A DNA stretch of 64,000 nucleotides from Streptomyces ambofaciens ATCC 23877 (GTDB taxonomy: Bacteria; Actinomycetota; Actinomycetes; Streptomycetales; Streptomycetaceae). Below are positions 18,956 through 55,566 of the stretch, one piece after another. A program made the translations under genes and the position numbers. The stretch covers positions 8,109,001-8,173,000 of the forward strand of contig NZ_CP012382.1 in the NCBI RefSeq assembly GCF_001267885.1, written 5' to 3'. A model generated the notes under the pieces. It was not told the DNA's origin and searched no databases. It worked only from the letters and a program-made list of their open reading frames with translations. Each line of letters opens with the position of its first letter. Position 1 is the stretch's first letter.

Positions 18956-19198
18956 CTACGCGGCGTCGCGGTCGTCGTGGGCGCCGCCGTCCAGTTCACG
19001 GGCGAGGCGGCGCTCCAGCTCGGTCAGGGGCACGTCCTTGCGCACCCGCTCCGGATGCCCCGGGGGCGGCTCACGCCACAGCTCTTGCGGCCGTACCTCC
19101 TCGTACGGCGCCGTCTCACCCCCGATACACAGCCTTCCGTAGGTGACCAGGCCCTCCCACAGGCCGCGGATGAACCGGCGCGGACGCGAGAACCCCAT
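18956..19198 (-). CDS. DUF6059-family small protein
   Basis: An 80-residue minus-strand protein from the ATG whose first base is 19198. GGAGG lies eight bases upstream, and the open frame continues upstream without coding character. It shows the small-protein pattern of DUF6059: an N-terminal RRFIRGLWEGLVTYGRLCIG helix, then PPPGHPERVRKDVPLTELERRLARELDG. Such proteins occur in many Streptomyces antibiotic clusters and have no known function. It is convergent with the CLF gene and divergent from the cyclase at 19509. Confidence 0.65.
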   Translation of the reverse strand: MGFSRPRRFIRGLWEGLVTYGRLCIGGETAPYEEVRPQELWREPPPGHPERVRKDVPLTELERRLARELDGGAHDDRDAA

Positions 19199-38668: not shown

Positions 38669-39754
38669 TCACACGGGCACGGCCTCCACCAGGGAGATCG
38701 CCGCCGCCGTCTCCACGACGCGCTCCAGACGGAACCCGGCACGGGCCAGGAGGTCCGCGTACTGGCCCGGAGTGCGCTCACGGCCGCCGACCAGCAGCAT
38801 CAGCCACAGGTCGACCAGCTTGCCGGAGTGCGGCTCGTCGCCCTGCTCCGGAATCACCATCTCCGCGATCAGCAGCCGCCCGCCCGGCTTGATCGCCGCG
38901 CGCACGTTGCGCAGGATCTGCAGCGCCTGCTCCTCGGGCCAGTCGTGCACGATGTGCTTGAGGACGTAGGCGTCCGCCCCGCCCGGCGGCACCTCGAACA
39001 GGTCGCCGGCCACCCGCTCGGTCCGGTCGGCGACCCCCTGCGCGGCGAGGAACTCCGCCGCCCCGTTCTCCTCGACCCGCGGGTCGTACAGGACGCCCCT
39101 GGTCGCGGGGGAGGAGGCCAGGATGCCCGCGAGCAGACCGCCCTGGCCGCCGCAGAAGTCCACCACCGTGCCGAACCGCGTGAAGTCGTAGGCCGCGACG
39201 ATCGGCCCGGTCTCCGAGGCGGACATGCTGCCCATGCCCTCGAAGAACACCTGCCCGTACTCGGCGTTCTTCGTCAGGAACTCGAAGGCGTGCATGCCGC
39301 GCAGCTTCGGCAGCGCCGGCTCACCGGTGACCACGGTCTCGGGGAAGCCGCTCCAGTCCTCCCAGTGGATGGGATGACCCATCAGCAGCGCGATGGGGCG
39401 CATCGACATCGGGTGATCGGCGCGCAGCGCGTCCGCCATCGGCGTCAGCTCGAACGTGCCGTCCGCACGGGTGGCGAACACCCCGTTGCTCGCCAGCAGG
39501 CGCAGCACCCGCCCGAGCGCGTCCGCGTCCGCGCCGACCCGCCCGGCGAGCTCCTCGGCGGACAGCGGCCCCTCGGCGAGTGCCTCGGCCACCTTCAGCT
39601 CGGCGACGACGTGCACCGCCCGCGACACCATGACACCCATGATCATTTCCAGCAGGGCGAACGGCGGCGGCGCGAGTTCCCGGCTCTGCCGCTGCAGCTC
39701 CGCTCGCGCTTTCTCCGCTTCCCGGACGACGTGCGGGGGCGGCAATTCGGGCAT
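38669..39754 (-). CDS. alpH: O-methyltransferase-like protein (AlpH-like, candidate hydrazine/diazo installation enzyme)
   Basis: A 361-residue protein from the ATG with first base 39754, which has GGAGGAAACTC directly upstream. The N-terminal dimerisation domain (LLEMIMGVMVSRAVHVVAELKVAEAL) and Rossmann core are those of Methyltransf_2 O-methyltransferases, with LKHIVHDWPEEQALQILRN at the usual catalytic His. The SAM glycine motif reads DFCGGQGG instead of the common DVGGGxG. In kinamycin biosynthesis AlpH, an O-methyltransferase-like protein, was reported to couple glutamylhydrazine to the polyketide without SAM. Position next to the core operon makes this its likely counterpart. A plain methyltransferase role remains possible. 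Confidence 0.82.
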   Translation of the reverse strand: MPELPPPHVVREAEKARAELQRQSRELAPPPFALLEMIMGVMVSRAVHVVAELKVAEALAEGPLSAEELAGRVGADADALGRVLRLLASNGVFATRADGTFELTPMADALRADHPMSMRPIALLMGHPIHWEDWSGFPETVVTGEPALPKLRGMHAFEFLTKNAEYGQVFFEGMGSMSASETGPIVAAYDFTRFGTVVDFCGGQGGLLAGILASSPATRGVLYDPRVEENGAAEFLAAQGVADRTERVAGDLFEVPPGGADAYVLKHIVHDWPEEQALQILRNVRAAIKPGGRLLIAEMVIPEQGDEPHSGKLVDLWLMLLVGGRERTPGQYADLLARAGFRLERVVETAAAISLVEAVPV

Positions 39755-41128: not shown

Positions 41129-41159
41129 CCCCGGCGTGCCCCGCGCACGCCACCCTCCA

Positions 41160-41192
41160 GGCCCCGCCGGCCCCTCCACGGCCGGCGGGGCC
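41160..41192 (+). terminator. 13-bp hairpin after the propeller gene
   Basis: GGCCCCGCCGGCC (41160-41172) pairs perfectly with GGCCGGCGGGGCC (41180-41192) across a 7-base loop, 32 bases after the propeller stop. It is a likely terminator separating that gene from the Ebo-type operon. Confidence 0.75.
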
Positions 41193-41370
41193 CACGCATG
41201 CCCGCCCCGCCAACGCCCTGCCCGGTCCGCCCTGCCGGGGCGGGCGGTGGGATCCGGCTCGGCGGCCGCTCGACATCCGGCGGAGGACCGCACCGCCGCC
41301 CCGCCCGGCTCGGCATCCTGGCCCCACACCCCCACGCCACCACCACGTCCCACGCCCAGGGAGGCCGCCC

Positions 41371-42501
41371 GTGACCCCACATGCCACCACCTCAGCCGCC
41401 GGTGACACCACCGGCGTGTGGCTGATCGGAGCCCGCGGCTCGGTGGCCACCACAGCGGTGGCGGGCTGCGCCGCGCTGGCGGCCCAACTGCTCGCGCCCA
41501 CCGGCATGGTCACCGAGACGGACGCCTTCACCGGCAGCGGCCTGCCCGCCCTGGACTCGCTGGTCTTCGGCGGCCACGACACGGCGAGCACCCCGCTGCC
41601 CAAACGCGCCGAGGAACTGGCCGCCCAGGGCGTCCTGCCGCCCTGGCTGCCCGCCGCCGTGCACAGCGAACTGGCCGCGGCCGACGCACGCATCCGCCCC
41701 GGCGGCCCGGTGGACGGCGACAGCCGCGCCCCCGAGGAACTCATCGCCGACTTCGCCACTGACCTCAGGGACTTCGCCCGCCGCACCGGCGTCGCGCGCA
41801 CCGTCGTCGTCAACGTCGCCTCCACCGAGCCCGAACCGGCCCCCGGCACCTGGCCGGCCAGCTCCCTGTACGCGGCCGCGGCCCTGCGGGCCGGCTGCGC
41901 CTTCGCCGACTTCACCCCCTCCACCGGACTGCGCCACCCCCAGCTGGCAGGGGCGGCCCGCGTGTCGGGCCTGCCCTACGCGGGCCGCGACGGCAAGACC
42001 GGGCAGACCCTGCTACGGGCCGTACTGGGCCCGATGTTCGCCCAGCGGGCGCTGGCGGTGCGGGCCTGGTCGGGCACGAACCTGCTGGGCGGCGGCGACG
42101 GCGCCGCCCTGGCCGACCCGGCCGCCGCGCGCGCCAAGAACGCCGGCAAGGAACGCGTCCTGGCCGACACCCTCGGCACCACGCCCCAGGGCGAGGTCCA
42201 CATCGACGACGTGCCCGCCCTGGGGGAGTGGAAGACCGCCTGGGACCACGTGGCCTTCGACGGGTTCCTCGGCACCCGCATGGTTTTGCAGACCATCTGG
42301 CAGGGCTGCGACTCCGCGCTCGCCGCGCCCCTCGTCCTCGACCTGGCCCGGCTGCTCGCCCGCGCCCACGAGAAGGGCCTGTCCGGCCCGCGGCCCGAAC
42401 TCGGCTTCTACTTCAAGGACCCCGACGGCGACGAGTCCGCCCTGACGGAACAGTACGCACACCTCCTCGCCTTCGCCGCACGGCTGGGCCACTCCCGGTG
42501 A
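41371..42501 (+). CDS. myo-Inositol-1-phosphate synthase-like protein
   Basis: A 376-residue protein from GTG 41371 (GGGAGG upstream). It shows the inositol-phosphate-synthase plan: Rossmann start VWLIGARGSVATTAVAG, TVVVNVASTEPEP, the substrate loop DGKTGQTLLRAVLGPMFAQR, and WSGTNLLGGGDGAALADPAAARAKNAGKE (split motif), then HIDDVPALGEWKTAWDHV. True synthases convert glucose-6-phosphate to inositol phosphate with NAD. Here it heads an Ebo-type operon, overlapping the UbiA gene by four bases, so it probably makes a cyclitol phosphate used by that system rather than supplying general inositol. Members in such operons are shorter and diverged. Confidence 0.82.
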   Translation: MTPHATTSAAGDTTGVWLIGARGSVATTAVAGCAALAAQLLAPTGMVTETDAFTGSGLPALDSLVFGGHDTASTPLPKRAEELAAQGVLPPWLPAAVHSELAAADARIRPGGPVDGDSRAPEELIADFATDLRDFARRTGVARTVVVNVASTEPEPAPGTWPASSLYAAAALRAGCAFADFTPSTGLRHPQLAGAARVSGLPYAGRDGKTGQTLLRAVLGPMFAQRALAVRAWSGTNLLGGGDGAALADPAAARAKNAGKERVLADTLGTTPQGEVHIDDVPALGEWKTAWDHVAFDGFLGTRMVLQTIWQGCDSALAAPLVLDLARLLARAHEKGLSGPRPELGFYFKDPDGDESALTEQYAHLLAFAARLGHSR

Positions 42502-43475
42502 ACACACCCCGCCCCGCCACCCGGACCCACCACCCCCGGCCGGCCCACCTGCCACCCCCCGCCCCCCGCCCCGCCACCGCCGCCCGGATCCGCGCCTGGG
42601 CCGAACTGCTGCACGCCCCGGCCCTGTTCACCGTGCCCGGCGACGTCCTGGCCGGCGCCGCCGCCACCGGCCGCCCGCCCACCCGGCGCACCGCCCTGGC
42701 CGCCGGCGCCTCCCTGTGCCTGTACGAGGCGGGCATGGCCCTCAACGACTGGGCCGACCGGACTGAGGACGCCGCCGTGCGCCCGCACCGGCCCCTGCCC
42801 TCCGGCCGCATCCGCCCCGGCGCCGCCCTCGCCGCCGCGGGCGCCCTGTCCGCGGCCGGCCTCGCCCTCGCGGCCTGCGCCGGGCGCCGCACCCTCGCCC
42901 TGGCCGTCCCGCTGACCGCCACCGTCTGGGCCTACGACCTGGGCCTCAAACACACCCCCGCAGGCCCGCCGGCGATGGCCACCGCCCGCGCACTGGACCT
43001 GCTCCTGGGCGCGGCCGCCACCACCGGCACCCCCCGCCCCGCCCTCGCCCCGGCCACGGTCCTGGCCGCCCACACCCTGACCGTCACCCTCGTCTCCCGC
43101 CGCGAGGCCGAAGGAGGCTCCAGCGCCGCCCCCCTCGCCGCCCTCGCCGCGGCCGGCGCCCTCACCGCCGTCCTCGCCGGCCGCCGCCCCACCGGCACCC
43201 TCCTGGGCCGCCACCGGCCCACCCCGGCCCCCGCCGACGCCCTGCCCACCGCCCTGGCCGCCTCCTACGCCACCGCCTACGCCCGCCCCCTGGCCCACGC
43301 CGTCCTCAACCCCTCCCCCCAGCTCACCCAGCGGGCCGTCGGCGGCGGCATCCGCGCCACCATCGCCGTCCAGGGCGCCCTCGCCGCCCGGGCCGGCGCG
43401 CCCGCGACCGCCGTGCTCACCGCCGCGCTCGCCCCCCTGGCCGCCCGCCTGGCCCGCAAGGTGAGCACCACATGA
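42498..43475 (+). CDS. eboC: UbiA-family prenyltransferase (EboC-like)
   Basis: A 325-residue membrane protein from GTG 42498. After a Pro/His-rich cytosolic leader of about 30 residues it has eight or so hydrophobic segments. The prenyl-diphosphate/Mg motif NDWADRTED (Asn83, Asp84, Asp87, Asp91) is clear, and the second acidic region is YDLGLKHTP with a following DLLLGA. UbiA enzymes attach isoprenyl chains to aromatic or cyclitol acceptors in the membrane. In Ebo operons EboC is this enzyme and probably prenylates a product of the neighbouring sugar/cyclitol enzymes. It is coupled on both sides by four-base overlaps. Confidence 0.85.
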   Translation: MNTPRPATRTHHPRPAHLPPPAPRPATAARIRAWAELLHAPALFTVPGDVLAGAAATGRPPTRRTALAAGASLCLYEAGMALNDWADRTEDAAVRPHRPLPSGRIRPGAALAAAGALSAAGLALAACAGRRTLALAVPLTATVWAYDLGLKHTPAGPPAMATARALDLLLGAAATTGTPRPALAPATVLAAHTLTVTLVSRREAEGGSSAAPLAALAAAGALTAVLAGRRPTGTLLGRHRPTPAPADALPTALAASYATAYARPLAHAVLNPSPQLTQRAVGGGIRATIAVQGALAARAGAPATAVLTAALAPLAARLARKVSTT

Positions 43476-44317
43476 GCCGGCCGCGCCTGGGCTACGGCAC
43501 CAACGGGCTGACCGACCTGCGCCTGGACGACGCCCTGACCCTGCTGGCCGACCTCGGCTACGACGGCGTCGGCCTGACCCTCGACCACATGCACCTCGAC
43601 CCGCTCGCGCCCGGCCTGGCCGCCCGCACCCGCCGGCTCGCCCACCGCCTCGACACGCTCGGCCTGTCCGTCACCGTCGAGACCGGCGCCCGCTACGTCC
43701 TCGACCCCCGCCGCAAACACGGCCCCACCCTGCTCGACGCCGACCCCGACGACCGCTTCGCCCGCATCCGCCTGCTGATCCGCGCCGTGCGCGTCGCCGC
43801 CGACCTGGGCGCCCACGCCGTGCACTGCTTCAGCGGCATCACCCCGCCGGGCACGGACGAGGACACCGCCTGGCAACGCCTGGCCGATGCCCTCGGCCCG
43901 GTCCTGGAGGCCGCCGAGGACACGGGCGTGCCCCTCGCGGTGGAGCCCGAACCCGGCCACCTGCTGGCCACCCTCGCCGGCTTCCACCACCTGCGCCGTC
44001 TCCTGGGCGACCCCGCACCCCTCGGTCTGACCCTGGACATCGGGCACTGCCAGTGCCTGGAGCCCCTTTCGCCCGCCGACTGCGTGCGCGAGGCCGCCCC
44101 CTGGCTGCGGCACGTGCAGATCGAGGACATGCGCCGCGGCGTCCACGAACACCTGCCCTTCGGCGACGGCGAGATCGACTTCCCGCCCGTCCTCCACGCC
44201 CTCGCCGACACCGGCTACCAGGGCCTGACCGTCGTCGAACTGCCCCGCCACTCCCACGCGGGACCCGAACTGGCCGCGCAGTCACTGCGGTTCCTGCGCG
44301 ACGGAGGAACACGATGA
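43472..44317 (+). CDS. Sugar phosphate isomerase/epimerase-like TIM-barrel protein
   Basis: A 281-residue protein of the AP-endonuclease-2/xylose-isomerase-like fold. It has barrel strands LGYGTNGL, GVGLTLDH, LAVEPEPGHLL, GLTLDIGHCQC, HVQIEDM and LTVVELPR, which bring the usual metal-binding Glu/Asp/His residues together (Glu in EPEPGH, Asp-His in LDIGHC, Glu in VVELPR). It is probably a cytosolic metal-dependent isomerase of a sugar or cyclitol. In the operon it lies where cyanobacterial Ebo loci carry other sugar enzymes (EboD). Four-base overlaps link it to eboC- and eboA-like genes. Confidence 0.8.
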   Translation: MSRPRLGYGTNGLTDLRLDDALTLLADLGYDGVGLTLDHMHLDPLAPGLAARTRRLAHRLDTLGLSVTVETGARYVLDPRRKHGPTLLDADPDDRFARIRLLIRAVRVAADLGAHAVHCFSGITPPGTDEDTAWQRLADALGPVLEAAEDTGVPLAVEPEPGHLLATLAGFHHLRRLLGDPAPLGLTLDIGHCQCLEPLSPADCVREAAPWLRHVQIEDMRRGVHEHLPFGDGEIDFPPVLHALADTGYQGLTVVELPRHSHAGPELAAQSLRFLRDGGTR

Positions 44318-44913
44318 CCCTCCAGCCCACCACCCCTAAGGCGGGCCCGCCCCCGCACCTCACCGGCCTCGGCGCCGAAGCACACCACTGGCTGAGCGCC
44401 GCCCACGCCGCCGCCACCGCACAAGATGCCCGCTGGGAACTGCACTTCGCCGAAGCCGGCCGCCGCTGCGGCCCCGCCCACGCCGACTCCGCCCGCGTCC
44501 TGCTGCTGACCGCGGCCCGCCCCCACCCGGCGACCCTGACCCGGCTCTACCGGCAGGGAACAGCCCCCGAGCGGCGCGCCGTCCTGCTCGCCCTGCACCC
44601 CCTGCACTGCGACCCCGCCGTCGGCCTGCCCCTGGTGGAAGACGCCCTGCGCACCAACGACACCACCCTGTTCACGGCAGCCCTCGGCCCCTACACCGCC
44701 CGCCACCTCGACGCCCACCAGTGGCGGCACGCCGTACTGAAGTGCCTGTTCACCGACGTGCCCGTGACCCGGATCGACGGCCTCGCCGCCCGCGCCCGCG
44801 GGGATGCGGAACTGGCCCGCATGCTGCGCGCCCACGCCGCCGAACGCACCGCCGCCCACCGCGAGATCCCCGCCGGCCTCCCGCACGTGCTCGCCCTGAC
44901 CCAGGAGCAGTGA
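44314..44913 (+). CDS. eboA: EboA-domain protein
   Basis: A 199-residue soluble, mostly helical protein from ATG 44314 (ACGGAGGAAC upstream). It matches the EboA pattern, notably the C-terminal AVLKCLFTDVPVTRIDGLAARARGDAELARML segment (given here as spaced family blocks VLKCLFTDVPVTRIDGL and DAELARML), and TAALGPYTARHLDAHQWRHA before it. EboA has no known enzymatic function but is a defining member of Ebo operons, which in cyanobacteria are needed to move scytonemin precursor to the periplasm. Coupled to both neighbours. Confidence 0.82.
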   Translation: MTLQPTTPKAGPPPHLTGLGAEAHHWLSAAHAAATAQDARWELHFAEAGRRCGPAHADSARVLLLTAARPHPATLTRLYRQGTAPERRAVLLALHPLHCDPAVGLPLVEDALRTNDTTLFTAALGPYTARHLDAHQWRHAVLKCLFTDVPVTRIDGLAARARGDAELARMLRAHAAERTAAHREIPAGLPHVLALTQEQ

Positions 44914-44915
44914 CC

Positions 44916-45791
44916 TTGCGCATCTTCGACCCGCACATCCACATGACCTCCCGCACCACCGACGACTACGAGGCCATGTACGCCGCCGGTGTCCGGGCCG
45001 TCGTCGAGCCGTCCTTCTGGCTCGGCCAGCCCCGCACCTCGCCCGCCTCCTTCCGTGACTACTTCGACGCCCTGCTGGGCTGGGAGCCCTTCCGCGCCGC
45101 CCAGTACGGCATCGCCCACCACTGCACGATCGCGCTCAATCCCAAGGAGGCCAACGACCCGCGCTGCCTGCCGGTCCTGGACGACCTGCCCCGCTACCTC
45201 GTCAAGGACCGGGTGGTGGCGGTCGGTGAGATCGGCTACGACTCGATGACGCCGGCCGAGGACACCGCCCTGGAGCAGCAGCTCCAGCTGGCCGCCGACC
45301 ACGGCCTGCCCGCCCTCGTGCACACCCCCCACCGCGACAAGCTCGCCGGCCTCCACCGCACCCTCGACGTGGTCCGGGGGTCCGCGCTGCCCACCGACCG
45401 GGTGCTCGTCGACCACCTGAACGAGACCACCGTCAAGGCCGCCAAGGACAGCGGGGCCTGGCTCGGCTTCTCCGTCTACCCCGACACCAAGATGGACGAG
45501 GACCGCATGGTCGCCGTGCTGGGGGAGTACGGACCCGACAAGGTCCTGGTCAACTCCGCCGCCGACTGGGGCAGGAGCGACCCGCTCAAGACCCGCAGGG
45601 TCGGCGACGCCATGCTGCGCGCCGGCTTCACCGAGGACGACGTGGACCGGGTGCTGTGGCGCAACCCCGTCGCCTTCTACGGCCTCAGCGGACGCCTCGA
45701 ACTCGGCGTCGCGGACACCGGCACCACCCACGAGGGCAACTCCGTCCTGCGCGGCGCCCCCGCCACCGAACCGCTCCCCGCAGGCGCGTGA
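44916..45791 (+). CDS. eboB: TatD-family metal-dependent hydrolase (EboB-like)
   Basis: A 291-residue TatD-type TIM barrel. The start is TTG 44916, eight bases after AGGAG and giving MRIFDPHIHM; GTG 44910, overlapping the eboA stop, is the alternative. Metal ligands are visible: DPHIHMTS (His-x-His), GEIGYD (Glu), LVHTPH (His), DHLNE and NSAADWG (Asp). TatD enzymes are cytosolic phosphodiesterase/amidohydrolase-like proteins; EboB homologues have no defined substrate. The fit to Ebo operon content is strong. Confidence 0.87.
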   Translation: MRIFDPHIHMTSRTTDDYEAMYAAGVRAVVEPSFWLGQPRTSPASFRDYFDALLGWEPFRAAQYGIAHHCTIALNPKEANDPRCLPVLDDLPRYLVKDRVVAVGEIGYDSMTPAEDTALEQQLQLAADHGLPALVHTPHRDKLAGLHRTLDVVRGSALPTDRVLVDHLNETTVKAAKDSGAWLGFSVYPDTKMDEDRMVAVLGEYGPDKVLVNSAADWGRSDPLKTRRVGDAMLRAGFTEDDVDRVLWRNPVAFYGLSGRLELGVADTGTTHEGNSVLRGAPATEPLPAGA

Positions 45792-45794
45792 CCC

Positions 45795-46967
45795 GTGCGC
45801 TTCCGGCACCCCGACGGGTCCACCGTCCATCTCGCCTACTGCACCAACGTGCATCCCGCCGAGACCCTCGAGGGGGTGCTGGCCCAGCTGCGGGAGCACT
45901 GCGAGCCGGTCCGGCGCAGGCTGGGCCGCGACCGGCTGGGCATCGGTCTGTGGCTGGCCCGTGACGCCGCCCACGCCCTGGTCACCGACCCCGCGGCCCT
46001 GCGCGCCCTGCGCGGCGAGCTGGAGCGGCGGGGACTGGAGGTCGTCACCCTCAACGGCTTCCCCTACGAGGGATTCGGCGCGGAGGAGGTCAAGTACCGT
46101 GTCTACACGCCGGACTGGGCCGACCCCGAGCGCCTGGAGCACACGACATCGCTGGCGCGGGTCCTGGCGGGGCTGCTGCCCGACGACGTCACCGAGGGCA
46201 CCATCTCCACGCTGCCGCTGGCCTGGCGCACCGCCTACGGCCAGGCCCGCGCCGACCAGGCCCGCGCCGCGCTGCTCACCCTCGCCGAACGCCTCGACGC
46301 CCTGGAGGAGCTGACCGGCCGCTCGGTGCGCATCGGCCTGGAACCCGAGCCGGGCTGCGTGGTGGAGACCACCCGTGACGCGATCGCGCCGCTGACCGCC
46401 GTCGGCCACGACCGCATCGGTGTCTGTGTCGACACCTGCCACCTGGCCACCTCCTTCGAGGACCCGGACACCGCCCTGGACGCCCTGACCGCCGCCCGCA
46501 TCCCGGTCGTCAAGTCCCAGCTGTCCGCCGCCCTGCACGCCGAGCAGCCCGCCCTTCCCGAAGTCCGCCGGGCACTCGCCGCCTTCGCGGAGCCGCGGTT
46601 CCTGCACCAGACCCGCACCACCACCCCCAGCGGCGCCCTGCACGGCACCGACGACCTCGACGAGGCCCTCGCGGGTGACGCACTGCCGAACGCCGGACCC
46701 TGGCGCGCCCACTTCCACGTCCCCCTCCACGCGGCCCCCGCCCCGCCGCTGACCTCGACGACGGAGGTCCTCAAAGCCGTGCTGGCCCGCCTGGTGGGCG
46801 GCCCGCACCCCCTCACCCGGCATCTCGAGGTGGAGACCTACACCTGGCAGGCCCTCCCGCCCGAGCTGCGGCCCCGCGCCCGCGCGCAGCTCACCGACGG
46901 TATCGCCGCCGAGCTGACCCTGGCCCGCGACCTGCTGACCGACCTCGGCCTGAAGGAACTGCCATGA
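45795..46967 (+). CDS. eboE: Metabolite traffic protein EboE (TIM-barrel)
   Basis: A 390-residue protein from GTG 45795. It matches the EboE pattern: LAYCTNVHPAETLEGVLAQL at the start, GLEVVTLNGFPYEGFGAEEVKYRVYTPDW (seen as TLNGFPYEGFG and VKYRVYTPDW), IGLEPEPGCVVETT, VCVDTCHLATSFED, and HFHVPLH near the end. The fold is xylose-isomerase-like with Glu/Asp/His metal residues. EboE is one of the best conserved proteins of the Ebo system, linked to transport of secondary metabolites to the periplasm in cyanobacteria. It overlaps the next gene by four bases. Confidence 0.9.
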   Translation: MRFRHPDGSTVHLAYCTNVHPAETLEGVLAQLREHCEPVRRRLGRDRLGIGLWLARDAAHALVTDPAALRALRGELERRGLEVVTLNGFPYEGFGAEEVKYRVYTPDWADPERLEHTTSLARVLAGLLPDDVTEGTISTLPLAWRTAYGQARADQARAALLTLAERLDALEELTGRSVRIGLEPEPGCVVETTRDAIAPLTAVGHDRIGVCVDTCHLATSFEDPDTALDALTAARIPVVKSQLSAALHAEQPALPEVRRALAAFAEPRFLHQTRTTTPSGALHGTDDLDEALAGDALPNAGPWRAHFHVPLHAAPAPPLTSTTEVLKAVLARLVGGPHPLTRHLEVETYTWQALPPELRPRARAQLTDGIAAELTLARDLLTDLGLKELP

Positions 46968-48376
46968 CCGATCCTCTCCAGACCGATGCCGGCCGCGATG
47001 GTCGCCCGACCCCGCTCCTCGTCCTGGACGTCGTGGGCCTCACCCCCCGCCTGCTGGACCACATGCCCCACCTCAAGCAACTCGCCCAGGCCGGCTCCCG
47101 CGCCCCCCTCGGCACCGTCCTGCCGGCGGTGACGTGTGCCGCCCAGTCGACGTTTTTGACCGGCACGCACCCTGCCGAGCACGGCATCGTCGGCAACGGC
47201 TGGTACTTCCGCGAGCTCGGCGATGTCCTGCTGTGGCGCCAGCACAACGGCCTGGTCGCCGGCGACAAACTCTGGGACGCCGCCCGCCGCGCCCACCCCG
47301 GCTACACCGTCGCCAACATCTGCTGGTGGTACGCGATGGGCGCCGACACCGACTTCACCGTCACCCCCCGCCCCGTCTACTACGCCGACGGCCGCAAGGA
47401 ACCCGACTGCTACACCCGGCCCCCCGCCCTGCACGACGAACTCACCGGCAAACTCGGCACCTTCCCCCTCTTCCACTTCTGGGGACCGGGCGCCGACCTC
47501 GTCTCCAGCCAGTGGATCATCGACGCCACCCGCCACATCATGGCCACCCGCCACCCCGACCTCACCCTCACCTACCTGCCCCACCTCGACTACGACCTCC
47601 AGCGCTACGGCCCCCACGACGCCCGCTCCCTGAAAGCCGCCGCCGACCTCGACGCCGCCCTCGCCCCGCTGCTGGACGACGCCCGCGCCCAGCAACGCAC
47701 CGTGGTGGTGCTGTCCGAGTACGGCATCACCCCCGTCACCCGGCCCGTCGACATCAACCGCGCCCTGCGCCGGGCGGGGCTGCTGGAGGTCCACACCCAG
47801 GACGGTATGGAATACCTCGACCCGATGGCCTCCCGCGCCTTCGCCGTCGCCGACCACCAGATCGCCCACGTCTACGTCCGCCGCCCCGAAGACCTCGACG
47901 CCACCCGCGCCGCCCTGACCGGCCTGCCCGGCATCGAGCAGCTCCTGGACGACGAGGGCAAGAAGGCCCACCACCTCGACCACCCCCGCGCGGGCGAACT
48001 CGTCGCCGTCGCCGAGCCCGACGCCTGGTTCACGTACTACTACTGGCTCGACGACCGGCGTGCGCCCGACTTCGCGCAGCTCGTCGAGATCCACCGCAAA
48101 CCCGGCTACGACCCCGTCGAGCTGTTCATGGACCCCCACGACCCCTACGTCAAGGTCAAAGCCGCCGGCGCCCTGGCCCGCAAGAAACTCGGCATGCGCT
48201 ACCGCATGGCCGTCGTCCCCCTGGACCCCGCACCCATCCGCGGCAGCCACGGCCGCCTCCCCGCCGGCGACGACGACGGACCACTCCTGCTGTGCTCCAC
48301 CCCCCACGCCCTCGGCGACCGCGTCGCGGCCACCGAAGTGAAACAACTCCTCCTCCAGCTCGCCGGAATCGGCTGA
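46964..48376 (+). CDS. eboF: Alkaline-phosphatase-superfamily phosphodiesterase (EboF-like)
   Basis: A 470-residue protein of the nucleotide pyrophosphatase/phosphodiesterase group. Motifs: LLVLDVVGL (metal Asp), AAQSTFLTGTHPAEHGIVGNGW with the nucleophile-position Thr/Ser, LTYLPHLDYDLQRYGP (metal Asp, with Gln where many family members have His), and VVVLSEYGITPV in place of the usual SDHG. These changes are shared, as far as I recall, with EboF homologues. There is no signal peptide, so it acts in the cytoplasm. It ends the Ebo-type operon; a 132-base gap follows before the ferredoxin gene. Confidence 0.82.
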   Translation: MTDPLQTDAGRDGRPTPLLVLDVVGLTPRLLDHMPHLKQLAQAGSRAPLGTVLPAVTCAAQSTFLTGTHPAEHGIVGNGWYFRELGDVLLWRQHNGLVAGDKLWDAARRAHPGYTVANICWWYAMGADTDFTVTPRPVYYADGRKEPDCYTRPPALHDELTGKLGTFPLFHFWGPGADLVSSQWIIDATRHIMATRHPDLTLTYLPHLDYDLQRYGPHDARSLKAAADLDAALAPLLDDARAQQRTVVVLSEYGITPVTRPVDINRALRRAGLLEVHTQDGMEYLDPMASRAFAVADHQIAHVYVRRPEDLDATRAALTGLPGIEQLLDDEGKKAHHLDHPRAGELVAVAEPDAWFTYYYWLDDRRAPDFAQLVEIHRKPGYDPVELFMDPHDPYVKVKAAGALARKKLGMRYRMAVVPLDPAPIRGSHGRLPAGDDDGPLLLCSTPHALGDRVAATEVKQLLLQLAGIG

Positions 48377-48508: not shown

Positions 48509-48835
48509 ATGAAAAAAATCGCTTCGCCGGCCGCGCTGTCCGGGCGCGCCGAGCGGATCGCCCAGCGCGACCGTTCCGACGCCTGGAAGAAGCCGCCGCG
48601 GCGCATCGAGAAGTCCGAGTGCATCACGTGCGACACGTGCCTGCGCAGCTGCCCCGCTGAGTTCGGTGCCATCTTCGACCGCGGCCTGGACGTAGTGATC
48701 ATCCCCGAGCTGTGCTCGGGCTGCCCCGCCTGCGTGCTGGAGTGCCCCGTGGACTGCATCTACGTCGACGAGGACTGGACGCCGACCGACGACGCCATGT
48801 GGAACCACATCGAGCTCACCGCAAAGGGTGCGTGA
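48509..48835 (+). CDS. kinI: 2[4Fe-4S] ferredoxin of the hydrazine cassette (KinI-like)
   Basis: A 108-residue ferredoxin. It has two cluster motifs: Cys38/41/44/48 (CITCDTCLRSCP) and Cys69/72/75/79 (CSGCPACVLECP). A basic N-terminal tail of about 34 residues and a C-terminal acidic segment flank them. It would pass single electrons to an oxidoreductase. Position at the head of the glutamylhydrazine cassette matches the kin cluster, where a ferredoxin gene precedes the others. The next gene starts on the last base of its stop, so expression is coupled. A partner enzyme that needs the electrons may be the unknown protein that follows. Confidence 0.85.
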   Translation: MKKIASPAALSGRAERIAQRDRSDAWKKPPRRIEKSECITCDTCLRSCPAEFGAIFDRGLDVVIIPELCSGCPACVLECPVDCIYVDEDWTPTDDAMWNHIELTAKGA

Positions 48836-50754
48836 TGAATGCCTTGCCCGAGCGCGGGGAGTCCCGCCGTGCCGCCAACGCCCGCAAGCGGGTCAGCCGC
48901 CGGCCCAGCCGTCTCGGCCTGGTCGCGGGAGCCACACTCAAGCCCGACCGGGTACGGGAGGCCGACGCCGGCTTCCCGGGCCTGCTCAAGCGGGCCTGGC
49001 AGCGTGCCGAAGAGGCCGATGACCTGCGGTCGTTCGTCGAGGTGCTGCTGACCCTGGACGGCCACGTACCGGCCGACGTCCAGCTGCGGGCGCTCAGCGC
49101 GCCCGAGGAGGCGGCGCTGGCCACCCTGTGCGGCCTGACCTGGCGCACCCAGGAGACCACCACCACCGCCGCGGATGCGGGCGCGGACGGCGACGGCGGC
49201 CCGGAGCCCGTCTTCCTCGGCGAGATCGCCCTGGCCACCAGCGGCCGTGTCGTCCTGCGCGTCCCCTCCCAGGCGCCGCTCAAGGCCGACCAGCTGGTGG
49301 GCGGCGTACGCCGCGTGCCCTGGACCCAGGCCGACCTCGACGGCTACCGGGAGTATCTGCGCCGCGCCGAGGTGCGGGTGGCCGAGACCGTCGCCGACTG
49401 CCGCCGCTGGCTGGACGCCCAAGGGCCCCAGGGCCGTGACGCGCTGCTGGAGCAGGCCAAGGAGGCGGCGCTGCGCACCGCGCCGTTCGTGCTCTACCAG
49501 CAGGGCAGGCAGTACACGAACTTCCGCGACCACAACACCCTCACCGGCAAGACGCTGTGGCCGGGCCACCCCGACTGCGCCCTGAGCAGCCTGCAGGGCC
49601 TGCCGCTGGAACTGTGGTCCGACCACGACGCGCAGCTGCTGGTCTGCCTCACCCTGCTCGTCCGCTCGGCCGGCCCCGGCCGCGTCGAGGAGGCCAACGG
49701 CACCCAGCTCACCGTCGACCACCTCGCCCACATGCTGGAACGCATCCGGCTCGGCTACAACGCCGCCCTGGGCCGTGAGCAGGTGCCGCCCGCCGCCTCC
49801 ACGTCGGTGGCCGACCTCAACGACCTGGCCGTCGCCCTGCGCACGCACCGGGCGGAGGTCGCCGGCCACGCCCAGCTCTACCGCGAGATCCACGGCGCCC
49901 TCATGCACAAGATCGAGAAGGTGGCCCGGCCCTACGCCGATGCGGCCAGGGCCCGCGAGGATGCGGTGGTGGCCCGGCTCACCGACCGGCTGCCGCTGAC
50001 CGGTGACACCCTTCAGGAACTGGGCCGGGAACTGGCCGCCGCCCCGCACTGGCTCGCCGCCCCGCACGGCGACTTCGCGACCGGACTGGAAGCGCTGGTG
50101 TACGCCTCGGCCGGCGCCGCCACCGAGGCGTTCGACGCCGACTTCGCGATGAGCCGCGGCATGCGCTCCCTGCCCGACCTGATCAGCGCGCTGCGCGAGG
50201 AGCGGTGGGCGGAGATCTGCGACTGGGAGATCACCCGCTTCTTCTGCTGCGTGGTGCCCGACCCGTCCGCCGCCCGGCACTTCGGCGGCTCCACCGCCGC
50301 CCTCGCCGACGCCGCCTGGGCGATGTCCTCGCGCATGCAGTACAACTCCTGGCACTTCATCGCCGGGAACCTGCCCAAGGGCCCCGAGGTCGTCGACCGC
50401 GACCACTTCGTGCCGCCCACCATCCCCGACGTCGCCTTCTACTCCGACCAGCACCACCACGGGCACGTCAACAACAACGTGCGGTTCTCCATCCGGTCGC
50501 CGCAGTCCGTCGTGGTGGACGGCCGCCGCTTCAACGGCTTCGTCGACCTGCGGCTGCTGCGCTGCGACGGCACCCCCTTCGACGAGCAGGACCTGCTCGC
50601 CGCACACCGGGTGTCCGCGTTCACCGCACAGGCCACCGGCCTGGCCGCCGAACTGGCCGCGGCGGGCGAGGAAGTGGAGGTCACCGCCTTCGACTCCCCG
50701 TGGCACTGGTCGGCCGTCACCGGCCAGGACAAGCCCGCCAGCCGCGCGTCCTGA
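48835..50754 (+). CDS. kinJ: Large conserved protein of unknown function in the hydrazine cassette (KinJ-like)
   Basis: A 639-residue soluble protein from ATG 48835 (overlapping the ferredoxin stop). I recognise no standard domain. Visible features: a basic N-terminus with RRAANARKRVSRRPSRLG, long helices through the middle (LAHMLERIRLGYNAALG, LYREIHGALMHKIEKVARPYA split), MSSRMQYNSWHFIAGNLPKG, and a striking YSDQHHHGHVNNNVRF near 545-560, which could bind a metal. It lies between ferredoxin and amidase, matching the uncharacterised member (KinJ/FzmP) of hydrazine cassettes. A redox or N-N-bond-forming role with the ferredoxin is a guess. Confidence 0.75.
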   Translation: MNALPERGESRRAANARKRVSRRPSRLGLVAGATLKPDRVREADAGFPGLLKRAWQRAEEADDLRSFVEVLLTLDGHVPADVQLRALSAPEEAALATLCGLTWRTQETTTTAADAGADGDGGPEPVFLGEIALATSGRVVLRVPSQAPLKADQLVGGVRRVPWTQADLDGYREYLRRAEVRVAETVADCRRWLDAQGPQGRDALLEQAKEAALRTAPFVLYQQGRQYTNFRDHNTLTGKTLWPGHPDCALSSLQGLPLELWSDHDAQLLVCLTLLVRSAGPGRVEEANGTQLTVDHLAHMLERIRLGYNAALGREQVPPAASTSVADLNDLAVALRTHRAEVAGHAQLYREIHGALMHKIEKVARPYADAARAREDAVVARLTDRLPLTGDTLQELGRELAAAPHWLAAPHGDFATGLEALVYASAGAATEAFDADFAMSRGMRSLPDLISALREERWAEICDWEITRFFCCVVPDPSAARHFGGSTAALADAAWAMSSRMQYNSWHFIAGNLPKGPEVVDRDHFVPPTIPDVAFYSDQHHHGHVNNNVRFSIRSPQSVVVDGRRFNGFVDLRLLRCDGTPFDEQDLLAAHRVSAFTAQATGLAAELAAAGEEVEVTAFDSPWHWSAVTGQDKPASRAS

Positions 50755-50876
50755 CCGCACCCCCCCAGCCGCCCGGCGGGTCCTTCCCCCGCCCCGCCGG
50801 GCACACGGCCACCCCAGCACCGTCCGCAGCGCCCCTGGACGCCCCCAGGCAGTACAGGAGCAGAAGGGAGTGAGCG

Positions 50877-52286
50877 ATGACCGCCCGCGGCATCCGCCGG
50901 ACCAAGGAGCTGCTGTCCCGCCGGGAGCTCACCGCCGTCGAACACGTCCACCAGGTGCTGTCGGCCATCCGCGAGCGGGACCACCTGGACGCGTACGTGG
51001 CCGTCGCGGGCGACGAGGCGCTGAAGGCGGCCGAACACGCGGACGCCCTGATCCGCGAACGCGGCCGCGAGGCCTGGTGGGACCTGCCCCTGCTGGGCGT
51101 GACGGTCTCCGTCAAGGACCTGCTGCAGACCCGCGACCTGCCCACCACGCGAGGCTCCCTGCTGCCCAACACCCGGCCCGCGCAGGACGCCCCGGCCGTG
51201 GCCCGGCTGCGCGCGGCCGGCGCGATCGTCGTCGGCAAGACCAGCACCTCCGAGTTCGGCTGGAGCGCCTCCACCGTGGGCCGCGTCGCCCCGCCCACCC
51301 GCAACCCCTACGACCCGCGCCTGACCGCCGGCGGCTCCAGCGGCGGAGCCGCCGCCGCCGTCGCGGCCGGCCTGTGCGAGGGCGCGCTGGGCACCGACGG
51401 CTCCGGATCGATCCGCATCCCCGCCGCGTTCTGCGGCGTCGTCGGCTACAAGCCCTCCTACGGCCGCGTGCCCTACTACCCCAACGGTGCCGACCGCCTC
51501 GCCCACCAGGGCCCCCTCGCCGCCTCCGTCGCCGACGCCGCGCTGCTCGGCCAGGTCATCGCCGGCCCCCACCCCACCGACCCCGACTCCGGTCTCGGCT
51601 CGCTGGACTCCCCGCGCGACGTGCGCTCCCTGCGCATCGGCTGGATCGAGTACGAGGGCACCGACCCGGAGATCCGCCGCGTCACCGACACCGCCCGCGA
51701 CATCCTCCTGGACGAAGGCCACCACGTCGACGAGGTCGAGGTGCGCTGCAACAACCTCTACCCGGCCGTCGTCGACATCCTCGCCGCCAACGAGGCGGCC
51801 GGCACCAGCCCCCAGGACGAGCACCTCATCGACCCCGGCCGCCTGCACGTCGTACGCCACGGCCGCACCCTCAGCGGCGTCGCCGTGATCCAGGCCGAGG
51901 AGATCCGCCAGAACCTGCGCGCCACCCTGCGCTCGGTCATGGACAACTACGACCTGCTCGCCATGGCCACCGTGCCCGTCGAGCCGTTCGAGGCCGACGC
52001 CATCGGCCCCCAGTGGGCCGCCGACGCCCGCGACCTGCTGTGGCTCGCCTGGGCGCCCGCCTCCTACCCGTACAACATGACCGGCCAGCCCGCCGCGTCC
52101 CTGCCCGCCGGCCTGACCTCCGCCGGACTGCCGGCCGGGGTGCAGCTCGTCGGCCCGGTCGGCGCCGACGACCTCGTTCTGACCGTGGCCCGCCGCCTGG
52201 AGGCGATGCTGGCGCCGCTGCCGCACCCGCCCACCGACCACCTCACCCCCGCTTCCACCGGTACCACCGGCGAAAGGACGTCCTGA
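50877..52286 (+). CDS. kinK: Amidase-signature hydrolase (KinK/FzmO-like)
   Basis: A 469-residue amidase-signature enzyme. It has the Ser-cisSer-Lys triad: Lys80 ([10 protein letters not shown]), cis-Ser155 ([15 protein letters not shown]) and nucleophile Ser178 ([20 protein letters not shown]). The C-terminal half carries the usual [21 protein letters not shown]. Such enzymes hydrolyse or transfer amides in the cytoplasm. In the glutamylhydrazine pathway an amidase homologue is proposed to cleave a hydrazide bond, releasing or transferring the N-N unit. AGAAGGGAGTG precedes the start; the ligase gene follows after three bases. Confidence 0.87.
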
Positions 52287-52289
52287 ACC

Positions 52290-53801
52290 ATGTATGCCCG
52301 GTCATGGTCCACGCCCGCCCGCGAAGGCAGCGTCGGGCGCCCGTCCTTCGTCACCGACCACGGACTGTGGGACGAGGAGCGCCTCGCCGCCGCCGAACGC
52401 GTCGAAGCCGCCCTCGACGACGTCGACTACGTCCGCCTCGTCTTCGGCGACCCGCACGGACTGGCCCGCTCCAAGACCCTCACCACCGACGCCTTCCGCA
52501 CCGTGCTGCGCAACGGCATGAACTTCAGCCCCGGCCCGTTCCTCTTCGACACCGGACACGCCGTCGCCGTCGACTTCCTGGGCGAGCACGGCATCGGCGT
52601 CGACGAGATCTCCGGCGCGGGCAACTTCCTCCTCGTGCCCGACCCGGTCACCTTCCAGGTGCTGCCCGGACGCGGCCCGCGCACCGCCTGGGTCCTGGGC
52701 GACGAGTACCTGCGCGACGGCACCCCCCACCCGCTGTCCTCCCGGGCCGTGCTGCGCCGCGTCCTGGAGCGGTACACCGCCCTGGGCCTGGAACCCGCGC
52801 TGGGCCTGGAGGTCGAGTGGTACCTCACCCGCCGCCTGGACGACGAACCCGGCAACCAGGGCAACGGCTTCGGACTCCAGGGCCAGGCCCCGCGCGTGGC
52901 CGCGGTCAACGCCGGCTACCAGTTCAACCTCGACGCCGCCTACGACACCGTCGCCCCCATCACCGGCCCGCTCGGCCTGTACCTGCAAAAGCTCGGCCTG
53001 CCCCTGCGCTCGCTGGAACACGAGTCCGGCCCCGGCCAGGTCGAGACCACCTTCAGCCCGATGTCGGCCCTGGACACGGCCGACGCGATGCTCCTCTTCC
53101 GCACCGTCACCAAGCGGTACTGCGCCCGCCGCGGCCACCACGCCTCCTTCATGTCCCAGCCGCAGCTGGAGGCCGCCGACCCCAGCGGCTGGCACCTGAA
53201 CCAGTCCGTCGTGGACACCGCCACCGGCCGCAACCTCTTCAGCGCCGAAGGCCTGTCCGGCGGCCTGTCACCCAGCGGAAAGTCCTACGCCGAAGGACTG
53301 CTGACCTGGGCACGCGAACTGTTCCTGCTGTCCGTGCCCACCGTCAACGGCTACCGGCGCCTGGCCGCCGAACACGCCCTCGCACCCACCCGCCTGGGCT
53401 GGAGCTTCGAGGACCGCACCGCGATGCTGCGGGTCGTGGGCAACGGAGCGGGCGCCCACATCGAGAACCGGATGGGCGAGCCCTGCGCCAACCCCTACCT
53501 GAACATCGCCGCCCAGCTGTTCGCCGGACTCGAGGGCCTGCAGGCACAGCCCACCGACCCCGGCCCCGCCGCTCCCGCCGGCCCGCCCCAGCCGCAGACC
53601 GTGCCCCAGTCCCTGGAGGAGGCCCTGGACGCCTTCCGCGCCGGCCGCGCCGCCCGGCTCCTGGGAGCACCCCTGGCCGCCTGCATGACCAAGCTCAAGG
53701 AGAGCGAACTGCGGCGCTACACCGCCTGGAGCAGCGAACACCCGCCCGTGCCCGGACAGGTCACCGACTGGGAGCAGCGTGAGTACTTCGGCGCGTACTG
53801 A
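52290..53801 (+). CDS. kinL: Glutamine-synthetase-like glutamylhydrazine ligase (KinL/FzmN-like)
   Basis: A 503-residue GS-family enzyme. It keeps the glutamine-synthetase core: LEVEWYLTR (metal Glu), HESGPGQVETTF, FMSQPQLEAADPSGWHLNQS in place of the usual MPKP...GSGMHxH, and RMGEPCANPYLNIAAQLFAG. An N-terminal beta-grasp domain begins YVRLVFGDPHGLARSKTL. FzmN/KinL homologues use ATP to join glutamate and hydrazine, giving glutamylhydrazine. The altered ammonia-site residues fit a substrate other than ammonia, but that reading is by analogy. The gene is coupled to the amidase and followed by a strong hairpin. Confidence 0.87.
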   Translation: MYARSWSTPAREGSVGRPSFVTDHGLWDEERLAAAERVEAALDDVDYVRLVFGDPHGLARSKTLTTDAFRTVLRNGMNFSPGPFLFDTGHAVAVDFLGEHGIGVDEISGAGNFLLVPDPVTFQVLPGRGPRTAWVLGDEYLRDGTPHPLSSRAVLRRVLERYTALGLEPALGLEVEWYLTRRLDDEPGNQGNGFGLQGQAPRVAAVNAGYQFNLDAAYDTVAPITGPLGLYLQKLGLPLRSLEHESGPGQVETTFSPMSALDTADAMLLFRTVTKRYCARRGHHASFMSQPQLEAADPSGWHLNQSVVDTATGRNLFSAEGLSGGLSPSGKSYAEGLLTWARELFLLSVPTVNGYRRLAAEHALAPTRLGWSFEDRTAMLRVVGNGAGAHIENRMGEPCANPYLNIAAQLFAGLEGLQAQPTDPGPAAPAGPPQPQTVPQSLEEALDAFRAGRAARLLGAPLAACMTKLKESELRRYTAWSSEHPPVPGQVTDWEQREYFGAY

Positions 53802-53805
53802 CCCC

Positions 53806-53849
53806 CCGGGCGCCCGCGACACCACCCCCCTGGTGTCCCGGGCGCCCGG
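53806..53849 (+). terminator. 19-bp hairpin inside the hydrazine cassette
   Basis: The 19 bases at 53806-53824 pair with 53831-53849 with one mismatch and a 6-base loop, starting five bases after the ligase stop. It could partly terminate or protect the upstream mRNA, making the two downstream genes less expressed. Confidence 0.7.
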
Positions 53850-53891
53850 CCCGCTCCCGTCCACCCCTCCTCCCTCGACGAAGGCCCACCG

Positions 53892-55178: not shown

Positions 55179-55566
55179 GCGGACCGAAGGCAAGGACCTG
55201 GACCTGGACGAGGTGCTCGCCGTCTACCGCTCGTCCGGACTGGGCCAGCGGCGGCCCGTGGAGGACCGCGACCGCATGGCCGCGATGCTCGCCGGCGCCA
55301 ACCTCGTCCTGGTCGCCCGCGACACCGACGGCACCCTGCTCGGCATCGCCCGCAGCATCTCCGACTTCTCCTACGTCACCTACCTGTCCGACATCGCCGT
55401 CACCGGCCGCCTCCAGCGCTCCGGCATCGGCCGCGCCCTGATCGACGCCACCCGCAAGGAAGCCCCCACCGCGAAGATCGTGCTGCTGTCGGCGCCCGCG
55501 GCCACCGACTACTACCCCCACATCGGCTTCACCCGCCACAACTCCGCCTGGGTCCTCAACCCGTGA
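55162..55566 (+). CDS. kinN: GNAT acetyltransferase of the hydrazine cassette (KinN/FzmQ-like)
   Basis: A compact 134-residue GNAT from GTG 55162. It has the acetyl-CoA loop LQRSGIGRALI preceded by the YLSDIAVTGR strand and the late DYYPHIGFTRHNSAWVL segment. In fosfazinomycin and kinamycin pathways the homologous enzyme acetylates the glutamylhydrazine amino group, which may protect or mark the intermediate. The 17-base overlap with the lyase gene implies coupled translation. It closes the cassette and is followed by a hairpin at 55665. Confidence 0.85.
   Translation: MNWTTERTEGKDLDLDEVLAVYRSSGLGQRRPVEDRDRMAAMLAGANLVLVARDTDGTLLGIARSISDFSYVTYLSDIAVTGRLQRSGIGRALIDATRKEAPTAKIVLLSAPAATDYYPHIGFTRHNSAWVLNP

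Follow-up and report, generated by a model that had tools for sequence, protein, structure and literature searches.

An Ebo-type operon with an INO1-like cyclase in the kinamycin cluster of Streptomyces ambofaciens and in other Streptomyces diazo-antibiotic clusters

Introduction

Ebo genes are best known from the pathway to a cyanobacterial sunscreen: in Nostoc, excretion of scytonemin intermediates into the periplasm is attributed to them (PMC6282210). Here we describe an operon of this type from Streptomyces ambofaciens ATCC 23877. It was found in a stretch of 64,000 nucleotides (the window; C1:8109001-8173000 of genome G000, in which contig C1 comprises 8,303,940 of 8,393,598 bases), where it occupies positions 41371-48376 of the kinamycin (alp) gene cluster. 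Each terminal inverted repeat of the chromosome carries a copy of this cluster (PMC12181624). Operons of the same kind were also found in many other Streptomyces diazo-antibiotic clusters.

The functional data on ebo genes that were found came from Nostoc, one Pseudomonas trait and one prenyltransferase assay only. Insertions in eboA, eboD or eboE of the ebo/EDB cluster of Pseudomonas fluorescens abolish a nematode-repelling trait (PMC6282210); compared by description only, that is a full ebo cluster with EboD, unlike the alp operon. Ubi-297 is, like the alp EboC protein, an EboC-type UbiA enzyme encoded in an ebo operon; unlike it, Ubi-297 is flavobacterial, and it was shown in vitro to farnesylate quinoline-like aromatics, with a preference for 8-HQA, rather than a cyclitol (PMC9235831). 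Ebo operons without eboD have been noted (PMC5133447), and SCO3242 and SCO3243 are listed as genes of the calcium-dependent antibiotic (CDA) cluster of S. coelicolor (PMC3610822).

No link between ebo genes and kinamycin was found in the open-licence papers seen, with supplements not included and PMC4506494 not searched for the term "Ebo". The term "Ebo" is absent from PMC12181624, PMC10477347 and PMC6133997, and "kinamycin" from PMC6282210 and PMC5133447. Single Streptomyces proteins are already named EboA or EboE in public annotation; the operon-level reading, the spread among diazo clusters and the gene conversion described below are new here.

Results and Discussion

An INO1-type Ebo operon in the alp cluster

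Seven co-directional genes on the plus strand make up the operon, which is flanked by alpH, its divergent neighbour, and by the hydrazine cassette. Adjacent genes overlap by 4 bases at five of the six junctions, and a 3-base gap separates EboB from EboE. The first-pass annotation of this DNA, which had described seven genes with mostly four-base overlaps lying between an alpH-like gene and the hydrazine cassette, was thus borne out, the placement by Pfam matches and gene order. Profile searches with the curated Pfam and NCBIfam models, at their own cut-offs, identified the genes almost certainly as an Ebo-type set. Together with the ScyD/ScyE-family gene upstream, the seven genes form a group of eight (40013-48376) that corresponds to alp1A-alp1H, counted back from Alp1J-Alp1N as named in PMC10477347.

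40013..41128, plus strand: ScyD/ScyE-family NHL-repeat protein with signal peptide (alp1A); NF033206, 231.7 bits, cut-off 80
41371..42501, plus strand: INO1-like cyclitol-phosphate synthase in the EboD position (alp1B); Inos-1-P_synth and NAD_binding_5, 97 bits each
42498..43475, plus strand: UbiA-type prenyltransferase, EboC / SCO3242 family (alp1C); NF045897, 366 bits, cut-off 260
43472..44317, plus strand: xylose-isomerase-like TIM-barrel isomerase/epimerase (alp1D); PF01261, 151.9 bits
44314..44913, plus strand: EboA (alp1E); NF035938, 152 bits, cut-off 50
44910..45791, plus strand: EboB, TatD-related metal hydrolase (alp1F); PF01026, 46.1 bits, cut-off 27
45795..46967, plus strand: EboE TIM-barrel protein (alp1G); NF035939, 434 bits, cut-off 250
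46964..48376, plus strand: EboF, phosphodiesterase fold (alp1H); PF01663, 241.9 bits, cut-off 23

The operon had been called complete. EboA, EboB, EboC, EboE and EboF are indeed present; EboD is absent from the operon and an INO1-like cyclase is found instead. The DHQ_synthase matches in the genome were a gene far away at C1:1589741 (146 bits) and one match below the cut-off (21.5 bits, cut-off 24.2). Since EboD is replaced in this way, and since eboD-less operons are known (PMC5133447), the operon was filed as an INO1-type variant and not as an ABCDEF operon. Of the profiles with which the annotation had proposed to check its reading, those for EboA and EboE were matched over cut-off and the EboC equivalog was not (113 bits, cut-off 250); the prenyltransferase was recognised by the SCO3242-family model listed above and by the UbiA Pfam model (81.7 bits, cut-off 34.2). 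EboA did not reach the longer EboA_family model NF035937 (52.7 bits, cut-off 320), and a PF28008 match was precomputed on homologues. No Ebo-specific model in Pfam or NCBIfam matched EboB, the nearest solved chain to which was the uncharacterised 3guw (9.4e-27). For the alp1D isomerase the nearest NCBIfam models were sugar isomerases, all below cut-off, and the nearest solved chain was the uncharacterised MJ1311, followed by a ribulose-phosphate epimerase.

A different function was suggested for alp1A-alp1H in PMC4506494, where it was speculated that these genes activate mycothiol synthesis for the conjugation of toxic intermediates and repair DNA damage. The family labels INO1, TatD DNase and AP endonuclease 2 agree with that proposal, as does a product that damages DNA; we take it to rest on loose family names. 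The INO1-like protein scored 24.5-24.8 bits against the mycothiol INO1 model TIGR03450 (cut-off 638), whereas the gene at C1:3999110 scored 727, and EboB scored 30.5 bits against the TatD exonuclease model TIGR00010 (cut-off 206). EboA and EboE exceeded Ebo cut-offs, and the closest models to the isomerase were the sugar isomerases mentioned above. Mycothiol detoxification with DNA repair was therefore not supported by the curated models and is highly improbable; because these models fit Ebo rather than mycothiol INO1 or the TatD exonuclease, an Ebo operon replaces it as the better reading of alp1A-alp1H than the published guess.

When compared to the ebo cluster of Nostoc punctiforme, the alp operon shares the EboA, EboB, EboC, EboE and EboF families and a place in a pathway to an aromatic product (PMC6282210). 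It differs in having the INO1-like cyclase for EboD, an extra TIM-barrel isomerase, a Gram-positive host and a location in a diazo polyketide cluster.

The gene at 40013-41128 may be part of the Ebo unit. The ScyD/ScyE family belongs to scytonemin gene clusters, a further likeness between the scytonemin pathway and alp, and apart from this gene and its twin in the other inverted repeat no protein of the genome scored over the family's cut-off. An N-terminal signal peptide is visible by eye in the translation, which was also positive by a rough, home-made signal-peptide rule. That rule called a signal in 58 of 124 adjacent genes and in 124 of 582 others and was used as a hint only, since the ketoreductase, the aromatase, INO1, EboC and both major facilitator superfamily (MFS) genes were flagged as well. 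A hydropathy count on EboC (two segments over threshold) was uninformative.

The operon recurs in diazo clusters

By Pfam, the genes around the operon encode type II polyketide enzymes, angucycline-type oxygenases, an AlpH-type methyltransferase fold and the hydrazine cassette; two MFS transporters are also encoded in the cluster. AlpH is the enzyme that installs glutamylhydrazine (PMC10477347), and the roles of the hydrazine-cassette genes are described in PMC6133997 and PMC10477347. KinJ/Alp1J had no Pfam match and was assigned by gene order. The copy of the cluster in the opposite chromosome arm was 99.99% identical over the 40 kb compared. The two features that border the operon are as follows.

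38669..39754, minus strand: alpH, O-methyltransferase-like; Pfam Methyltransf_2, 135.8 bits, named by position and fold
48509..55566, plus strand: hydrazine cassette of ferredoxin, KinJ/Alp1J, amidase, glutamine-synthetase-like, lyase and acetyltransferase genes; Pfam matches except for KinJ

Diazo clusters were located by KinJ/Alp1J in nine named Streptomyces loci and then in 394 genomes of the class and 392 of the genus. After removal of duplicates (S. caniscabiei is G635 and ERV7 is G168), the merged sets contained 24 distinct KinJ-positive genomes at 60% identity or more. The operon was present in the cluster in 12 of these: S. ambofaciens, S. olivochromogenes A53, S. caniscabiei, JHA26, ERV7, CBMA152, S. 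physcomitrii, S. melanogenes, ISL-87, G686, G623 and G490. Three of these views were partial: the JHA26 contig ends inside the operon, EboF of G686 is cut by the end of the stretch and INO1 of G490 lies at the stretch edge. EboE alone was found in the cluster of G644, and two genomes (the metagenome-assembled genome G206 and the fragmented G081) were not judged. A survey of diazo clusters, as suggested with the first-pass annotation, thus found the operon in half of the genomes and none in nine, which are considered below.

The named loci were found with the window's own KinJ and favour close relatives, so an evenly drawn set of 17 genomes, including the window's own, gives the fairer count: six with a full operon (the window's own included), one with EboE only, nine with none and one unjudged. 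An operon lay within about 20 kb of KinJ in 6 of 17 genomes (5 of 16 when the window's own is left out), when 0.08 was expected at random. The corresponding probabilities under random placement were approximately 1e-10 and 1e-8; counting no more than two independent captures gives 0.003.

Could a common chromosomal operon simply happen to lie in the alp cluster as a passenger? Of 199 Streptomyces genomes, 138 have an EboE match (over cut-off in 135), and some in-cluster copies (arrangement 2, below) may be displaced native operons. Against this stand the random-placement probabilities, the shared synteny, the occurrence of more than one arrangement, purifying selection and the grouping of the cluster copies by INO1, and we consider a passenger very unlikely. 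Chance adjacency of operon and cluster was likewise judged unlikely on synteny and placement statistics. The earlier annotation had named occurrence of the operon at random chromosomal sites in close relatives as a sign of such adjacency; the operon is indeed common elsewhere, yet the S. ambofaciens cluster copy is no recent local duplicate.

At least three arrangements were seen. In the first, the operon lies between alpH and ferredoxin-KinJ (S. ambofaciens, S. olivochromogenes, S. caniscabiei, ISL-87 and G623); in JHA26 three other gene calls separate EboF from the ferredoxin. In the second, it lies beside alpH and ScyE, about 10 to 20 kb from KinJ (ERV7, CBMA152, S. melanogenes and S. physcomitrii). 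In G490 it precedes two FAD monooxygenases. ScyE adjoins the operon in S. ambofaciens and ISL-87 among the arrangement-1 clusters and not in S. olivochromogenes, S. caniscabiei (where it is found elsewhere in the cluster) or G623, so that alpH, ScyE and Ebo occur together in S. ambofaciens, ISL-87 and the four arrangement-2 clusters. In G107 and G160 alpH directly abuts the ferredoxin gene. In G662 (L117 and L118 joined, 10600-19000) the place of the operon is taken by other genes, sugar-pathway- or acyltransferase-like by eye, and the alpH-ferredoxin gap may therefore be an exchange site.

No Ebo match was found around six KinJ matches of less than 60% identity (G535, G768, G170, G196, G732 and G689; 20-40 kb each). 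The surroundings of six others in that range (G181, G639, G759, G750, G185 and G297) stand outside the count. One in-frame stop was present in the KinJ homologues of G225 C33 (TAG), G535 C18 (TGA) and G639 C6 (TGA).

Exchange with a chromosomal copy

The S. ambofaciens genome has three copies of the operon: one per terminal inverted repeat and a diverged one near 6.75 Mb (C1:6746037-6753366). The chromosomal copy has the same seven genes in the same order, and its EboF protein is 100% identical to that of the cluster. Unlike the cluster copy it is flanked by ThuA/3-keto-disaccharide-hydrolase-type and isomerase genes and takes another place in the INO1 and EboA trees; protein identity is 76% for INO1, 65% for EboC and 61% for EboA. 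DNA identity between the copies was 73-79% in INO1, EboC and EboA, 97% in the 3' part of the isomerase gene, 98% in the 5' part of EboB, 93% in EboE and 99.5% in EboF.

43861..48376, no strand: gene-conversion patchwork shared with the chromosomal copy; identical runs against C1:6746037-6753366

Identical runs covered 43889-44067, 44075-44262, 44934-45133, 45135-45392, 45969-46239 and 47138-48376. The longest, in EboF, was 1239 bases, compared with a maximum of 110 in 2000 shuffles; gene by gene, runs exceeded the shuffles in the isomerase, EboB, EboE and EboF. Gene conversion with the chromosomal copy is thus seen in EboF and, over part of their length, in the isomerase, EboB and EboE genes. 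EboA, which lies within the patchwork, was not clearly converted (a run of 52, shuffles 38). Similar tracts were found in JHA26 EboF (363 bases, shuffles to 85) and G623 EboB (542, shuffles to 387), and G623 EboC was slightly over its shuffles (44, shuffles 36); S. caniscabiei had no clear tract (EboF run 65, shuffles to 61). INO1 showed no conversion tract in the three genomes compared. The bias may be part-mechanical, as conservation is highest in EboB and EboF. The alp EboF belongs to the chromosomal type, but its shared sequence groups, with weak support, with the copies of G140 and G159 and not with those that stand closest to the S. ambofaciens chromosomal copy when INO1 or EboA is used for the tree; further exchange may have taken place beyond that between cluster and chromosome. 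Repeated conversion makes this a clear case of a specialised cluster swapping parts with its paralogue. Deletion of the cluster copies alone may show nothing, because the third copy, with an identical EboF, is on the chromosome.

The trees were midpoint-rooted and contained some long rows. Ten cluster copies grouped in the INO1 tree (98/97), together with the decayed outsider L211. In the EboA tree seven cluster copies, alp included, formed a clade (98/92); the chromosomal copy of S. ambofaciens lay deep among other chromosomal copies, and S. physcomitrii grouped with L211. Six cluster copies formed one clade in the EboF tree (100/99), where alp was identical to the S. ambofaciens chromosomal copy. 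By the INO1 and EboA trees, the S. ambofaciens cluster copy did not arise through recent duplication of the chromosomal operon in the same genome. A single cluster clade was not rejected in approximately unbiased (AU) tests, which used quick trees with long or unsure rows dropped, for EboA (p-AU 0.49; 7 of 84 dropped) or, with alp left out, for EboF (p-AU 0.60, where the constrained tree was the better one; 8 of 81 dropped, alp among them). INO1 is the one gene to support a single lineage of all cluster copies, and one or two captures are possible. The outsider L211 (G054 C1:8497300-8517299) is a decayed Ebo operon with a split EboF and a short INO1, and may be what is left of a former diazo cluster.

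Active sites and selection

The INO1-like protein was aligned with the myo-inositol-phosphate synthase (MIPS) of A. fulgidus (1u1i; 3.6e-54), gap-free over residues 162-355. All eight residues with catalytic roles in MIPS are kept (D225, N255, D261, K274, K278, K306, D332 and K367); D259, also near the site, is replaced by G. EboC retains the motifs NDxxDxxxD and RPxRPLPSGR (NDWADRTED...RPHRPLPSGR). Judged by its residues, the INO1-like protein is a plausible cyclitol-making enzyme beside a kept UbiA motif.

The metal ligands of the nucleotide pyrophosphatase/phosphodiesterase (NPP) family are in part exchanged in EboF. When compared to the Xanthomonas enzyme 2gsn, a ligand H corresponds to Q213 and a D-H pair to E252-Y253. 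Across 81 sequences these replacements were near-universal (Q in 80, E in 81 and Y in 80), and D209, H429, T57 and D22 were kept in 80, 79, 79 and 75, respectively. The metal site is therefore remodelled, yet itself conserved.

Between cluster copies, dN/dS was 0.06-0.49 for all Ebo genes (six pairs) and 0.10-0.57 for alpH (five pairs). The Ebo genes in diazo clusters are under purifying selection.

A possible accessory lipid module

With moderate confidence, we propose that this INO1-type operon serves to make a prenylated cyclitol lipid, through which reactive aromatic intermediates would be handled or exported. The INO1-like protein would form a cyclitol phosphate, which the TIM-barrel isomerase would reshape, and the membrane prenyltransferase EboC would attach a polyprenyl chain to the cyclitol. 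EboB, EboE and EboF may finish or trim the head group, with EboA keeping the parts together. The resulting polar prenyl lipid would lie in the membrane and help to move or contain reactive aromatic intermediates (diazo- or hydrazine-bearing) or the product at the membrane or across it, and the exported ScyE-like protein would act outside. Cyclitol phosphate formation, prenyl transfer and head-group trimming are what the gene set predicts, and the same scheme was proposed for scytonemin in PMC6282210. The position of the operon beside alpH and an exported ScyE-type protein fits the movement or containment of reactive fluorene intermediates. What the analysis demonstrates are the gene identities, the repeated location in diazo clusters, purifying selection, the kept INO1 residues and the kept EboC motif; the reaction of each enzyme, the lipid product, its cargo and the direction of movement are inferred. 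The interpretation given in the first-pass annotation, a prenylated cyclitol carrier or other handling of a reactive intermediate, accordingly gains in its Ebo identity, its repeated diazo-cluster association and a plausible cyclitol enzyme, while the carrier role stays an inference.

A number of observations weigh against this proposal. Prekinamycin has been made in vitro with AlpJ, AlpK, AlpH and glutamylhydrazine, and no Ebo protein (PMC10477347); an enzyme assay of an INO1-type Ebo protein was not found in the open-licence literature. Nine of the 24 KinJ-positive genomes had no Ebo operon in the cluster within the stretch examined. Five of them have EboE elsewhere (G047, G184, G160, G596 and G225), and four have no EboE anywhere in the genome (G676, G107, G662 and G095), the G676 contig ending just before the ferredoxin gene. 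Stepwise loss of Ebo in a shared architecture is suggested by G490 (full), G644 (EboE only) and G095 (none). ScyE was rejected as an obligate Ebo partner, since G676, G047 and G184 have ScyE and no in-cluster Ebo. EboF is without three of the six canonical NPP-family metal ligands.

The usual surroundings and the ancestry of the operon point the same way. Among 69 Ebo loci compared (60 fetched, plus others; a single representative served to name each flank family), 41 had a putative exported isomerase immediately after the operon, and 34 of those 41 also had a ThuA/3-keto-disaccharide-hydrolase-type gene immediately before it; these are not obvious antibiotic genes. EboA of ERV7, CBMA152, S. 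melanogenes and G686 formed a second clade (100/100) beside chromosomal copies (82/90), and three arrangement-2 copies of EboF formed a clade of their own (100/100), placed among chromosomal ones (81/88). Six of the nine named genomes carry no EboE beyond the cluster copy; in a seventh, the metagenome-assembled genome, EboE lies on a separate contig. The first cluster gene of ERV7 is immediately preceded by homologues of the usual Ebo flank (oxidoreductase, isomerase and ThuA-type, 73-88% identical). Some cluster copies could therefore be displaced native operons, and the ERV7 cluster may lie at a displaced native Ebo site or reflect an assembly fault. In the joined ERV7 stretch (G168, C51 from 1086001; L151, L126 and L127, 1-5700), no polyketide synthase match was found between flank and cluster.

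A requirement of the operon for diazo chemistry was not supported. Since Ebo-free clusters exist and prekinamycin forms in vitro without Ebo, the operon is better described as a selected but dispensable accessory. The accessory status, and diazo formation without the module, would also suit self-protection, in which the Ebo lipid or enzymes shield the membrane or cytoplasm of the producer from the DNA-damaging diazo product and no intermediate is moved. Kinamycins are described in the literature as cytotoxic or antitumour, and many Streptomyces keep a chromosomal copy irrespective of diazo clusters. Four genomes (G676, G107, G662 and G095) nevertheless have diazo-type clusters and no EboE at all, the alp cluster already has two MFS transporters, and Ebo in the scytonemin pathway concerns an intermediate and not resistance (PMC6282210). 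Self-protection is thus a possibility to be kept in mind, albeit on the unlikely side.

The activity of Ubi-297 (PMC9235831) indicates that EboC-type enzymes can prenylate aromatic acceptors, and the operon could accordingly make a building block that is joined to an as yet unseen kinamycin-related end product. We know of no prenylated or cyclitol-bearing kinamycin, and to our knowledge the lipopeptide, indole pigment and angucycline hosts of the module share no such group. A building block is therefore improbable, and an accessory lipid that handles reactive intermediates remains our preferred reading.

Ebo operons in other contexts

Within the class, EboE was found in 98 of 394 genomes (90 over cut-off) and in 32 of 137 genera. 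Further Ebo operons lie at loci linked to nonribosomal peptide synthetase (NRPS) and P450 genes. At L189, genes for an acyl-CoA oxidase, KAS III, an FAD monooxygenase and a putative exported protein precede a full Ebo set, which is followed by TauD, an ABC transporter, APH, a hydrolase and an NRPS with thioesterase, as in a CDA-like lipopeptide cluster. Beyond SCO3242-SCO3243, this gene order is presumably that of the CDA cluster. L189 shares with alp the order INO1-EboC-TIM-EboA-EboB-EboE-EboF and a putative exported protein just upstream; unlike alp it is a nonribosomal lipopeptide cluster, and the exported neighbour has no Pfam family. No ScyE was seen beside the operon in the other Streptomyces contexts examined.

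A broader role can be suggested only tentatively, and we regard it as doubtful. The INO1-type Ebo lipid would be a general carrier for actinobacterial specialised metabolites that also serves CDA-type lipopeptides; in kinamycin producers it would carry a hydrazine- or diazo-bearing fluorene intermediate to the outer side of the membrane, where the ScyE-like protein handles it, so that kinamycin maturation would be partly extracytoplasmic. Diazo clusters would keep their own INO1, EboC and EboA and share generic EboB, EboE and EboF by conversion. An Ebo operon is now placed in a chemically well-defined and genetically tractable Streptomyces pathway as well as in a CDA-like cluster, and the carrier hypothesis is for that reason directly testable.

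EboC without an INO1 match was found at 13 loci (L167, L172, L174, L178, L180, L182, L184, L188, L190, L192, L196, L198 and L200) and at L183, which lies at a contig edge. A P450-family gene lies next to EboF in 10 of the 13, and seven loci also carry inositol-monophosphatase-family and gamma-glutamyltranspeptidase-family genes upstream. At L173 (G063 C78:4000-23999) EboA-EboB-EboE occurs twice in tandem with split EboF calls, either a partial tandem duplication or an assembly artefact. A shorter EboE-like class, covering model positions 1-242 only and below cut-off, was found in G330, G512, G260 and others of family f17.

Two further observations were made in the window. A stand-alone condensation-domain protein (PF00668) is encoded at 23560-25083, bordering the polyketide genes. 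A self-similar stretch with a 34-base offset and approximately 84% identity lies at 37751-38059, in the interval that separates alpH from the last FAD monooxygenase gene.

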